In this document: one piece after another, positions 43,025-57,607 of the stretch
How the letters are laid out: each line of letters starts with the position of its first letter
Numbering within the stretch: the stretch's first letter is position 1
From: Burkholderia pyrrocinia
GTDB taxonomy: Bacteria; Pseudomonadota; Gammaproteobacteria; Burkholderiales; Burkholderiaceae
Assembly (NCBI RefSeq): GCF_018417535.1
Contig: NZ_CP070977.1
Span: 3,847,643 to 3,911,642, forward strand
DNA: 64,000 nt
Reading direction: 5' to 3'
The notes under the pieces: model-generated
Databases searched by the model: none
The model's input: the letters and a program-made list of their open reading frames with translations, nothing else
Told to the model about the DNA's origin: nothing
Translations under genes and position numbers: made by a program

Positions 43025-43989
43025 CGAACGGCCTCCATGCTCACGTTCGTTCGCTGCCCCCCGAGGGGGCGGCCGCCTTCCTTGGTGGCGGCCCGGCGGA
43101 ACGCGGCACGACGAGTGCTGTCTCCCCGCTGTTCGACATCGTCCGCGAGCAATACGGCGCGGCATTCGACGACGCGATCGCGCGCAACGTTGCCGATGCG
43201 ATCGCGGAAGACGTCGGCGCCGGCGACCAGACCGGGCGGCTCGTACCGGCCGGAGGGCGTCGCCGCGCGCGCATCATCGTGCGCGAGGAAGCCGTACTGT
43301 GCGGCGTGCCGTGGTTCGAGGCCGTGATCGGCCGGATCGATCCGGCGATCGCCGTGCAATGGCACTACCGCGAAGGCGACCGGATGACGCCCGATTCGAC
43401 TGTCTGCGAACTCGAAGGGCCGGCGCGTGCGCTGTTGACGGCGGAGCGCAACGGGCTGAACTTCCTGCAACTGCTGTCGGGTGTCGCGACCGCGACGCGC
43501 CGTTATGTCGATCGCGTCGAAGGCACGCGCGCGAAGATCCTCGATACGCGCAAGACGCTGCCAGGCCTGCGGCTCGCGCAGAAGTACGCGGTGCGCGTCG
43601 GCGGCGGCGAGAACCAGCGTCTCGCGCTGTACGACGGCATCCTGATCAAGGAGAACCACATCGCAGCGGCGGGTGGTGTCGGCGAGGCGCTCGACGCGGC
43701 GTTCGCGCTCGATTCGGGCGTGCCCGTGCAGGTTGAGGTCGAGACGCTCGCGCAGCTCGACACGGCGCTCGCGCATCGCGCGCAGTCGGTGCTGCTCGAC
43801 AACTTCACGCTCGACATGATGCGTGAAGCGGTGCGCGTGGCGGCCGGCAAGGCCGTGCTCGAAGTGTCGGGCGGCGTCAATTTCGATACGGTGCGCGCAT
43901 TCGCGGAGACGGGCGTCGATCGCATCTCGATCGGTGCACTGACGAAGGACGTACGCGCGACGGACTATTCGATGCGGATCGTCGACTGA
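43021..43989 (+). CDS. nadC: Nicotinate-nucleotide pyrophosphorylase (carboxylating)
   Basis: A 322-residue enzyme making nicotinate mononucleotide from quinolinate and PRPP. The core is intact: [14 protein letters not shown], the [16 protein letters not shown] block with PRPP/quinolinate-binding basic residues, GILIKENHI, and the late [13 protein letters not shown] and [10 protein letters not shown]. The N terminus is unusual. About residues 5-29 ([20 protein letters not shown] and on) look encoded by a REP-like palindromic element rather than by ancestral nadC. No alternative start lies between that stretch and the core, so the extension is probably translated. Confidence 0.94.
43040..43110. 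repeat. REP-like palindromic element inside the nadC 5' end
   Basis: Two adjacent hairpins: GCCCCC-CGA-GGGGGC (43056-43070) and GGCCGCC...GGCGGCC (43071-43093), flanked by TTCGTTCGCTG and CGGCGGAACGCGG. I recall similar sequences as dispersed extragenic palindromes in Burkholderia and relatives, but cannot confirm by search. Here the element stays in frame. Confidence 0.6.
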
Positions 43990-54637: not shown

Positions 54638-55093
54638 TCACGCGGCCGGCAGCGTCTTGCCGAACGAGATGCGCTCCTCGACGCGATAGCCGAGTGCCGC
54701 ATAGAAGCGGCACGCGTCGTCGTTGCCGGGCAGCACCTGCAGGTTGATCTTCAGGCAGCCGCGCGCGGCGAGCGCGCTTTCCGCGTGCGCGATCAGCGCG
54801 CGGCCGACGCCGAGCCGCCGCGCGTCGTTCGCGACGCCGAACGAGTAGAGCCAGCCGCGATGTCCGTCGAAACCCGCCATCAGCGTGCCGACGACGCGCG
54901 CGCCGCTGGTCGCGACGAAGAACAGTTCCGGCTGCGTCGCGAGCTTCAGCTCGATCGATCGCAGCGGATCGCGGTGCAGCGGCGCATCGGCTTCTTCGTA
55001 TTGCGGGAACGCGTCGCGCCATACCGCGAGTACGGCATCGGTGTCGGCGCGTTCGAACGGGCGGATAGCGACAGCATCGGCGGCGGCATCCAT
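54638..55093 (-). CDS. GNAT family N-acetyltransferase
   Basis: A 151-residue acetyltransferase. The acetyl-CoA-binding motif A is ANDARRLGVGRALIAHAE, preceded by the beta-strand LYSFGVA and followed by INLQVLPGNDDACRFYAALGY (in part). It resembles YpeA-type enzymes; the substrate is unknown. It lies 13 bases after argD in the same direction, so it is probably co-transcribed with it. Confidence 0.86.
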   Translation of the reverse strand: MDAAADAVAIRPFERADTDAVLAVWRDAFPQYEEADAPLHRDPLRSIELKLATQPELFFVATSGARVVGTLMAGFDGHRGWLYSFGVANDARRLGVGRALIAHAESALAARGCLKINLQVLPGNDDACRFYAALGYRVEERISFGKTLPAA

Positions 55094-55106
55094 CGCGGCG
55101 GTCTCC

Positions 55107-56291
55107 TTAGAGCGTATCGAGGATCGACCGCAGCATCGCCATCATCTGGTCGATCTCTTCGGTCGTCACGTTCAGCGCGGGCATGAAGCGCAGCAGGTTC
55201 GGCCGCGCGGCGTTCAGCAGCAGGCCGTCGGGCTGCATGTCGCGTGCCTTCTCGACGATCTGCGGGCCGATGTCCTTGCCGAGCAGCAGCGCGCGCAGCA
55301 GGCCTTCGCCGCGTTCGCCTTCGAAGCCGCGCTCTTCCGACAGCTCGAGCAGCTTGCGCTTCAGGTATTCGCCGCGTGCGCGCACGCCTTCGAGGAAGCC
55401 GGGCGCGACGAGCTGCGAGATCACCGAATAGCCGGCCGCCGTCATCAGCGGGTTGCCGTTGTACGTGCCGCCCTGGTCGCCGGCCTCGAACACCGCGACA
55501 TCGGCCTTCGACAGCAGCGCCGCGAGCGGTACGCCGCTGCCGATGCCCTTGCCGAGCGTCATGATGTCCGGCTCGATGTCGGCGAGCTCGTACGCGAACA
55601 GCGTACCTGCACGGCCGCAGCCGCTCTGCACTTCGTCGACGATCAGCAGCAGGTTGTGCTGCTTCGTCAGTGCGCGCAGCTCGCGCATGAATTCGCGCGT
55701 CGCCGGAATCACGCCGCCTTCACCCTGGATCGGTTCGAGCATCACGGCGACGGTCTTGTCGGTGATCAGTTTCTCGACCGAGTTGATGTTGTTCAGCTCG
55801 GCCTTCGGGAAGCCCGGCACCTGCGGCGCGTAGATCGTGTCCCAGCCCGGCTTGCCGCTGGCCGACATCGTCGCGAGCGTGCGGCCGTGGAAGCTGTGGT
55901 CGAACGTGATGATCTCGTACGCGCCGTTGCGGAACTTGCGGCCCCACTTGCGCGCGAGCTTGATCGCACCTTCGTTCGCTTCGGCGCCGCTGTTCGTGAA
56001 GAACACCTTGTCGAACACGCTGTGCTGCGTGAGCAGGCCCGCGAGCTTCGCCATCGGCTCGTTGTAGAACGCCGGCGACGGGTTCAGCAGCGTTTCCGCC
56101 TGCTGCTTCAGCGCTTCGACGACACCGTCGTTGCAGTGGCCGAGGCTGTTGACGGCCCAGCCCTGGATGAAGTCCAGATAGCGCTTGCCCGTGTGATCGT
56201 AGAGCCACGAACCCTTGCCGTGCGTAAACACGATGTCGGGGCGGTTCGTGATGTACATCAGCGAGTCGATCGGAAAATCGTTCAAGGGCAT
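55107..56291 (-). CDS. argD: Acetylornithine aminotransferase family protein
   Basis: A 394-residue class III PLP aminotransferase. ArgD transfers the amino group between glutamate and N-acetylornithine in arginine synthesis. PLP-site features are [48 protein letters not shown], and the Schiff-base lysine in [10 protein letters not shown]. The start at 56291 has GGAG upstream and begins [19 protein letters not shown]. The frame is open to 56432 but that part is the leader. The upstream terminator and arginine-rich leader ORF support an arginine function. Confidence 0.88.
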
Positions 56292-56332
56292 GGCAGCAGA
56301 CTCCAGCGGACGTTGAAAGGGAAACGGGCAAT

Positions 56333-56357
56333 AAAAAAGCCACGGAAGGCCGTGGCT
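56333..56357 (-). terminator. Attenuator-like terminator in the argD leader
   Basis: Minus-strand AGCCACGG-CCTT-CCGTGGCTTTTTT, a perfect 8-bp stem with a T tail, ends 41 bases before the argD ATG. It could end the upstream reductase gene, but it is 219 bases past that stop and lies downstream of a promoter and leader ORF. Confidence 0.85.
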
Positions 56358-56400
56358 GGTGGGTTCGAACAGCTTGTGCGTAACCGGTGAAGCAGTGGGG

Positions 56401-56484
56401 TTACGCGCGAGTCCGTGACGAGCCTGCGGCATCCGGGAGGAGCGGCGAGCGGCGACGTCGGAGAGCGGACAGGAAGCGGTTCAT
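56401..56484 (-). CDS. Candidate arginine-rich leader peptide of argD
   Basis: A 27-codon frame on the minus strand with ATG at 56482-56484 and TAA at 56401-56403. The product starts [14 protein letters not shown] and has seven arginines in 27 residues, four of them consecutive (CGA CGT CGC CGC, codons 9-12). The predicted transcription start falls on or next to its ATG, so it would be translated as a leaderless message; no ribosome site is seen. It ends about 44 bases before the terminator stem. Confidence 0.5.
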
Positions 56485-56490
56485 GTGCGC

Positions 56491-56520
56491 AAGCATAAGG
56501 CATCCCGCGCCCCACTGTAA
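56491..56520 (-). promoter_or_regulatory. Promoter of the argD leader
   Basis: On the minus strand TTACAG (near 56515-56520) and TATGCT (near 56492-56497) are separated by 17 bases. The expected start, seven bases on, is at or next to the A of the leader-peptide ATG. Confidence 0.6.
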
Positions 56521-56575
56521 ACCGCCGCGATGCCACGGATGTGACATCGCGGCGCGGGACGCGGGCGCGTGGGTC

Positions 56576-57607
56576 TCAGACCGGATGCGCGAGATCGGCG
56601 GCGCTCGTGAACGAGTCCGCGTAGAACTCGTCGGCCGGCAGTGCGTGGTGCAGCGTGAAGTCGCGCTGCGCGGATTCGACCATCACCGGCGCGCCGCACG
56701 CGTACACCTGATGACCCGACAGGTCGGGCAGGTCCTCGATCACCGCGCGATGGACGAAGCCCGTGCGGCCCGTCCACTGGTCGGCGTCGTCGGGCTCGGA
56801 GAGCACCGGCACGTACTTGAAGTTCGGGATCTCGCGCGCCCACTGCTCGGCGAGCTCGCCGAGGTAGATGTCCTTCTTGCGGCGTGCGCCCCAGTAGAGC
56901 GTCATCGGGCGCGTGATGCCCCGGTGCTTCACGTGCTCGATGATCGCCTTGATCGGCGCGAAGCCCGTGCCCGATGCAAGCAGTACGATCGGCTTGTCGG
57001 AATCCTCGCGCAGGAAGAACGTGCCGAGCGGGCCTTCGAAGCGCAGGATGTCGCGCTCCTTCATCGCGCCGAACACGTGATCGGTGAACTTGCCGCCCGG
57101 CATGTGGCGGATGTGCAGCTCGACCGGGCCTTCCTCGTGCGGCGCGTTCGCCATCGAGTAGCTGCGGCGCGAGCCGTCCTTCAGGATGAACTCGACGTAC
57201 TGGCCCGCGAGGTATTGCAGTCGTTCGTTGGCGGGGAGCTGCAGCTTCACGACCATCACGTCGTCGGCCTTGCGCTCGAGCGCGGCGATCCGGCACGGCA
57301 GCTTCTTGACCTGCACGCCGTCGACGCCGGCGATTTCGCGCACGTCGATCTCGAGATCGCACTGCGCCTTCGAGCAGCACAGCAGCGCGAGGCCGCGCGT
57401 GCGCTCATCATTGGACAGTGCCGACGCGGCATGCGGGCCCTGCTCGATCTGGCCCGACACGATCTGGCCCTTGCAGGAGCCGCACGCGCCGTTCTTGCAG
57501 CCGTACGGCAGATGGACGTTCTGGCGCAGCGCGGCTGCCAGCACGGTTTCGTCCGACTCGACCTGGAATTGCCGGCCGCTTTGCTTGAGAGTGACGTTGA
57601 ATGCCAT
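56576..57607 (-). CDS. Ferredoxin-FAD/NAD(P)H oxidoreductase (CDP-6-deoxy-glucoseen reductase-like)
   Basis: A 343-residue electron-transfer reductase. The N-terminal plant-type [2Fe-2S] domain has CKNGACGSCKG and a fourth cysteine in LLCCSK. The FAD-binding block is RSYSMANAP, and the NAD-binding region is LLASGTGFAPIKAIIEH with the terminal CGAPVMVESA. Database annotation usually calls it CDP-6-deoxy-delta-3,4-glucoseen reductase, but no deoxysugar genes are near, so a general reductase partner for an oxygenase is as likely. Confidence 0.87.
   Translation of the reverse strand: MAFNVTLKQSGRQFQVESDETVLAAALRQNVHLPYGCKNGACGSCKGQIVSGQIEQGPHAASALSNDERTRGLALLCCSKAQCDLEIDVREIAGVDGVQVKKLPCRIAALERKADDVMVVKLQLPANERLQYLAGQYVEFILKDGSRRSYSMANAPHEEGPVELHIRHMPGGKFTDHVFGAMKERDILRFEGPLGTFFLREDSDKPIVLLASGTGFAPIKAIIEHVKHRGITRPMTLYWGARRKKDIYLGELAEQWAREIPNFKYVPVLSEPDDADQWTGRTGFVHRAVIEDLPDLSGHQVYACGAPVMVESAQRDFTLHHALPADEFYADSFTSAADLAHPV

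Follow-up and report, generated by a model that had tools for sequence, protein, structure and literature searches.

A candidate arginine-sensing, ribosome-mediated attenuator before argD in Burkholderia, located in the catalogued RNA BcKCsr7

In transcription attenuators of the trp type, an intrinsic terminator follows a leader ORF with repeated codons for the end-product amino acid, and the leader RNA can form the alternative pairings 1:2, 2:3 and 3:4. The leader peptide of Salmonella speF is named SpeFL. The short upstream ORF orf34 contains consecutive Arg codons, and ribosome pausing without arginine alters the folding of the mRNA. The target is an ornithine decarboxylase and no gene of arginine synthesis, and control there runs through Rho-dependent termination, RNase G and the accessibility of the ribosome-binding site, with no intrinsic-terminator switch (PMC6386406). 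Leader-peptide attenuators for Trp, Cys and Leu exist in Actinobacteria; the part of the survey drawn on here reports no conserved RNA structure before arginine operons of this phylum (PMC1262725). ArgR is described, in the section used, as conserved in many gammaproteobacterial groups and absent in other classes (PMC5343134). This agrees with the genomes searched here, as ArgR (PF01316), the repressor family known from E. coli, matched in none of 31 (the window's own, 18 of the genus and 12 others of the order) and in nine of 14 control genomes. How arginine synthesis is controlled in Burkholderia, Paraburkholderia and their relatives has therefore no obvious answer. Open-licence papers yielded no biosynthetic trp-type arginine attenuator and none that calls BcKCsr7, the RNA considered below, by that name. 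The original prediction had also known of no arginine attenuator at argD, which holds for this literature; it had missed that the RNA itself is already in Rfam as BcKCsr7.

The window, i.e. the whole stretch of 64,000 nucleotides from Burkholderia pyrrocinia that was analysed, contains argD on the minus strand (55107..56291). Its product, acetylornithine transaminase, matches NF002985 with 815.7 bits (cut-off 568, E 4.9e-246), and argD is the putative regulated gene. A likely Shine-Dalgarno sequence, GGAG, precedes it (56301..56304, minus strand, from sequence inspection). A reductase-like gene is located upstream (56576-57607), and between this gene and argD the minus strand carries a promoter, a leader ORF and a terminator. 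Sequence inspection and a promoter scan place the -35 element TTTACA at 56516..56521 and the -10 element TATGCT at 56492..56497, both on the minus strand, with the leader ATG 7 bases further on. The spacer measures 18 bases, or 17 if the -35 element is read as TTACAG, the form in which the original prediction had given the promoter together with an ATG at the expected place. Both are present, and the 1 kb scanned contained one promoter-like site against 0.1 expected from shuffles. The leader ORF (56401..56484, minus strand; ATG 56484-56482, stop TAA 56403-56401) comprises 27 codons, and its peptide contains seven Arg in all, four of them consecutive, exactly as had been claimed. These four regulatory codons, CGA CGT CGC CGC (56449..56460, minus strand), form the core of region 1, the protector strand in folding.

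The intrinsic terminator, regions 3:4, consists of AGCCACGGCCTTCCGTGGCT and a T run (56333..56357, minus strand). The terminator scan returned one site against 0.5 expected, which is not unusual taken alone. From the end of the T run to the argD ATG (56291) there are 41 bases, the distance already proposed for this hairpin. Folding places region 3, ACCAGCCACGGC, at 56349..56360 (minus strand); it comprises the 5′ arm of the terminator with flanks and is the predicted antiterminator partner. Region 2, GCCGCAGGCTCGT (56418..56430, minus strand), is predicted by folding to pair with either region 1 or region 3; the partner-swap test described below supports the pairing with region 3. A linker hairpin, GCGTAAC / GTTACGC (56378..56406, minus strand), juxtaposes regions 2 and 3 in the minimum free energy folds.

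An open frame from the ATG at 56432 would allow a long N-terminal extension of argD. It was rejected, as the NF002985 match begins at residue 1 of the protein starting at 56291. A GNAT acetyltransferase gene (54638-55107, minus strand; NF002959, 182.9 bits, cut-off 124) begins 13 bases past the end of argD. Because of this short distance, the attenuator probably controls an argD-GNAT operon. Elsewhere in the window, an odd tRNA-like gene with the incomplete anticodon call tRNA-??? was recorded by ARAGORN (43247-43335, plus strand).

The leader is interpreted as a ribosome-mediated transcription attenuator that senses the supply of arginyl-tRNA and controls argD, with a probability of roughly 0.86. 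From the position of the promoter we infer that transcription starts at the first base of the leader ATG or a few bases from it, and the leader would be translated from a leaderless RNA. With ample Arg-tRNA, the ribosome would pass the four Arg codons and cover or pass region 2, leaving the 3:4 terminator to form. Termination would release the published 'sRNA' BcKCsr7, with a length of about 147-152 nt. A shortage of Arg-tRNA would make the ribosome stall on the Arg run and mask region 1. Region 2 would then engage the terminator's 5′ arm ahead of the synthesis of the 3′ arm, resulting in read-through into argD and hence a response to arginine. An untranslated leader would adopt 1:2 and 3:4, which makes termination the default. 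The released RNA or the peptide may in addition act in trans.

Conservation was studied in 160 argD upstream regions from two sets of 80 genomes. Five genomes occur in both sets, leaving 155 distinct ones. The first set holds the closest argD matches and is biased to near relatives; the leader was present in 80/80 of its loci. The second set comprises 70 genomes fetched from 127 family genomes with an argD match (the window's own excluded) and 10 fetched from 18 argD matches outside the family, the latter from seven of nine families. An ORF was accepted if it started with ATG, had 6-60 codons and contained three consecutive Arg within residues 4-13; a preceding -10 element was preferred, yet optional. 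This rule demands three consecutive Arg, and run length is partly a selection effect. Together with the window, 161 sequences were screened, 135 passed, and a terminator followed the ORF in 133 of these. The two passes lacking a terminator, L186 and L190, look like chance ORFs and were dropped, leaving 133 leaders. Leader and terminator were thus found by script in 132 of the 160 regions, corresponding to 127 of 155 distinct genomes (window excluded).

Inspection by eye added five of the 26 rule-failing regions: L120, L121 and L122 with RRSFR, L194 with RRTR, and L130, in which the start codon of the leader is masked by two N. The remaining 21 of 160 regions showed no such leader by script or, in the 15 inspected, by eye. 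Within the family, the leader is present in 12 of 19 genera having an argD match; seven genera (g2, g12, g15, g16, g18, g19 and g23; 16 regions) are without it. Outside the family, four of seven sampled families carry it, one of them by eye, and f21, f4 and f30 do not. In L138, L148, L149 and L152 (g12, g16 and g18), the attenuator is absent and argD lies close behind the upstream gene, a natural contrast. Examples of the leader come from Paraburkholderia, with P. xenovorans LB400 (L060) among the carriers, and Caballeronia, from g24 (MNQALHLRRRRTLLPPGSRAAVC), g11 (MNLIAIASIRRRRTLPQPGCRAARYRLR) and g3 (MNTAIIRRRARTLLPSGVPRG), and from another family (MNMIRTLLRRRSPLPLPGKPCA). An alignment across relatives had been proposed as a check of Arg run, ORF length and terminator. 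Arg run and terminator are conserved to the extent given by the script, while the C-terminal part varies in length. In a single GC-rich genome, an isolated Arg run or hairpin might be accidental; the observed conservation makes chance very unlikely.

The reading frame is kept. With the frame not assumed and the ATG defined as lying 5-9 bases after a -10-like hexamer, the motif CGACGYCG was in frame with the promoter-proximal ATG in 130/130 instances from 128 loci and 64 distinct sequences; motif and ATG are separated by 6-10 codons. In 131 of 133 leaders, 6-9 bases lie between the -10 element and the leader ATG. With a transcription start at the position indicated by the promoter, this spacing leaves no room for a Shine-Dalgarno sequence. 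The claim of a putative leaderless Arg leader ORF and terminator before argD has thus been borne out in anatomy, kept in frame across much of Burkholderiales and, as detailed below, predicted to switch.

Beyond the Arg run, many genera share a pattern RRR(R)-[S/T/A]-...-P. It could mark an arrest peptide, in which nascent RRRR, then S/T/A and a nearby Pro, would stall the ribosome in response to a small molecule, for instance arginine or ornithine, or to general translation stress, and not to a shortage of Arg-tRNA. A precedent is orf34 of Salmonella speF with its consecutive Arg codons, which answers to arginine and ornithine levels according to the passages used (PMC6386406). The stretch before the Arg run and the C-terminal part of the leaders vary in length and sequence, which argues against such a peptide. 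Since region 1 extends into the codons that follow the run, RNA pairing could account for their conservation. Arrest by the peptide itself is accordingly given little weight and considered improbable.

Codon choice within the Arg run is narrow. Among 89 distinct leaders, CGC occurred 175 times, CGA 94 times and CGT 77 times (346/346), and CGG, AGA and AGG were not used. The first codon of the run is CGA in 89/89. In six genes of the window, CGA makes up two of 92 Arg codons. CGA, CGU and CGC are the codon set read by the tRNA-Arg with anticodon ACG, which is inosine-modified. Because the run opens with CGA, a codon rare in window genes, and uses only CGA, CGU and CGC, the attenuator may be a gauge of one tRNA isoacceptor, with its charging, or its A34-to-I editing, reported by argD transcription; it might also be the chief point at which arginine regulates the pathway in a large part of the order. 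This extension is tentative and rather doubtful at present. The Arg codons double as region 1, and their conservation may partly be a pairing constraint.

Folding of the window leader yields the alternative pairings 1:2, 2:3 and 3:4, in which region 1 comprises the Arg codons and region 3 includes the 5′ arm of the terminator. The pairing of the Arg codons with region 2 is present in the untranslated minimum free energy fold. When a ribosome was placed on successive codons, the probability of the terminator was 0.98-0.99 at 24 of 28 positions scanned. It fell to 0.85, 0.16 and 0.04 with the second, third and fourth Arg codon in the A site, was 0.73 at the codon after the run, and reached 0.99 at the stop codon. 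Varying the ribosome footprint from 10 to 17 bases shifted this dip by about one codon only. The fold is thus predicted to switch when a ribosome sits on the Arg run. The elements of the trp-type scheme can be recognised. A short ORF with consecutive end-product codons (Arg x4 before argD) is present, and an intrinsic terminator lies between ORF and gene. By prediction, a ribosome stalled on the run would cover region 1 and leave region 2 available, whereas one at the stop codon would make region 2 inaccessible; an upstream segment is likewise predicted to pair with the 5′ arm of the terminator and to exclude the terminator, with negative alignment covariation.

The 27-codon Burkholderia type is represented by 23 leaders, the window among them and one genome counted twice; when stalled, 21 had a terminator probability below 0.5 at equilibrium, and all 23 exceeded 0.9 both with the ribosome at the stop codon and without translation. 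In the full set of 133 leaders, the probability was below 0.5 in 58 when stalled, and above 0.9 in 130 at the stop codon and in 133 untranslated. Leaders outside these 58 would need kinetic folding to lose the terminator upon stalling. Occlusion of the terminator 5′ arm by upstream RNA, before the 3′ arm is made, was compared with shuffles in 30 representatives of less than 80% identity drawn from the 133. The mean was 0.80 stalled and 0.40 at the stop codon. The untranslated state averaged 0.50 and is not uniformly open. For shuffled segments the value was 0.54, and the means of 100 shuffle sets reached at most 0.605. Only 15 of the 30 representatives were individually at or below 5/100 shuffles.

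In a MAFFT alignment of 31 sequences, the terminator showed clear compensatory change. The 2:3 pairing was not above column shuffles (67% of cells paired, 80/500 as high; covariation score 139/500), and sliding dropped the pairing to 30-49%. For 1:2, no covariation excess over column shuffles was found in this alignment. Covariation is perhaps weakened by indels between genera and by the additional constraint of the terminator on region 3. An alignment-free partner-swap test compared the fit of each region 2 to its own region 3 with the fit to region 3 of another species. Own partners reached -17.05 kcal/mol and swapped partners -15.23 kcal/mol, and 0/2000 permutations were as good; with one sequence per group (22 groups), the result was 0/5000. 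As controls, the 3:4 terminator was positive like 2:3, and the linker was negative (1035/2000). No species-specific match was detected for 1:2 (1008/2000 permutations as good). The test leaves relatedness partly in, and in individual species another partner frequently fitted better than the own one, which ranked in the top three for eight of 30. Two correspondences are telling: L193 has AGGCCGCAC as terminator arm plus following loop base and GUGCGGCC at the start of region 2; L107 has AGCCACGCUCAGC as arm plus loop and GCUGGGUCUGGCU at the start of region 2.

These results change the predicted identity of the antiterminator. The original prediction had paired a segment GTCACGG, correctly located at 56419-56413, with the 3′ arm of the terminator. 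For the segment containing it, the same test gave -8.68 kcal/mol for own and -8.56 kcal/mol for swapped partners, with 805/3000 permutations as good, and this pairing was abandoned. Region 2, GCCGCAGGCTCGT, with the 5′ arm of the terminator takes its place, on the 0/2000 result.

Two observations speak for a fixed, unregulated attenuator or a leftover, in which RNA structure is what keeps a GC-rich segment conserved and the ORF is fortuitous: the negative alignment covariation for 1:2 and 2:3, and the constraint that pairing with region 2 puts on the letters of region 1. Such an element has no need of a frame, which is kept in every one of the 130 instances despite the 6-10 intervening codons, nor of the near-constant distance of 6-9 bases between -10 element and ATG (131/133); moreover, divergent loci with the RRSFR or RRTR variants still hold an open ORF by eye. 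A structure of this kind is extremely unlikely, and a translated attenuator responding to arginyl-tRNA is the preferred reading.

The leader RNA of argD is RF02884 (BcKCsr7) of Rfam, already catalogued and not a new transcript. The match covers 56333..56498 on the minus strand with 168.6 bits (gathering score 59) and model positions 1-157 of 157. At E up to 1, no T-box or other described RNA family was found; the only further match, to the Burkholderia sRNA family ncS54 (56395-56331, minus strand), is sub-threshold (16.7 bits, cut-off 43). It overlaps the terminator half and is probably due to chance or a common terminator shape. RF02884 occurs in 65/65 genomes of the genus and in 183 of 299 family genomes (134 above cut-off; nine of 25 genera), and in none of 14 control genomes. 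A further name is IG1_2967543. The review passages used give Bc_KC_sr7, RIT34 and nc5U30 as aliases of an RNA of 147 nt on chromosome 1 of Burkholderia cenocepacia J2315 (2,967,641-2,967,787). In B. cenocepacia, the RNA is expressed in biofilms, is lowered during Caenorhabditis elegans infection and is raised by organic peroxide (PMC10987360). A transcript of this length beginning at the first base of the leader ATG would span 56484-56338 in the window, and its last base would be the first U after the terminator stem. This agreement compares different strains, J2315 and the window, and is consistent with a leaderless start, no proof of it. It also agrees with an RNA of about 150 nt, as had been predicted. 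The RF02884 model begins 14 bases before the leader ATG (56498-56485) and covers the -10 element; if the leader RNA is leaderless, the 5′ boundary of the model is therefore too far upstream.

Rfam and a review table, in the parts used, list RF02884 as an sRNA (PMC10987360). BcKCsr7 could act in trans as catalogued, with its position before argD being secondary, and its expression in biofilms and its changes in C. elegans infection and with organic peroxide would suit such a role. Yet argD is directly downstream in 30/30 loci, the best-scoring 30 of more than 183 matches. The 3′ end of the RNA is formed by a terminator in competition with an upstream segment, and the in-frame Arg run is kept. 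The name nc5U30 fits the class of 82 'short 5′UTRs' ascribed to processing or attenuation in the passages used from Sass 2017, a link inferred from the prefix (PMC5688073). A purely trans-acting RNA is thus a poor candidate, with a low probability. The published descriptions of BcKCsr7, as given in the passages and review table used, connect it to no leader peptide, arginine or argD. The word argD is absent from the main texts of Sass 2017 (PMC5688073) and Sass 2015, and the main text of Naville and Gautheret (2010) contains neither arginine nor argD. Under attenuation by arginyl-tRNA supply, the published small RNA would become the terminated leader of a metabolic switch.

The argD leader resembles the trp, his, leu and ilv attenuators in the run of end-product codons, the three alternative pairings and the intrinsic terminator. 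It differs by its Arg codons, the predicted leaderless ORF and argD as target. In Sinorhizobium, trpL, the leader ORF of an attenuator that encodes peTrpL, is reportedly leaderless as well; it concerns tryptophan and alphaproteobacteria. A T-box differs in binding the tRNA directly; the one of Firmicutes arginine genes is alike in sensing tRNA charging (PMC1262725). The carA leader of Pseudomonas (P32) is also located before a gene of arginine and pyrimidine synthesis, has a reported leader peptide in P. aeruginosa, and yields a short terminated RNA that was taken for an sRNA. In the passages used, its attenuation is ascribed to pyrimidines, and arginine is described as acting on transcription. 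In this comparison, the nearest arginine case to the argD leader is Salmonella speF orf34. As a concrete mechanism for arginine control, the candidate Arg-codon attenuator of argD would add arginine to the amino acids with biosynthetic ribosome-mediated attenuators.
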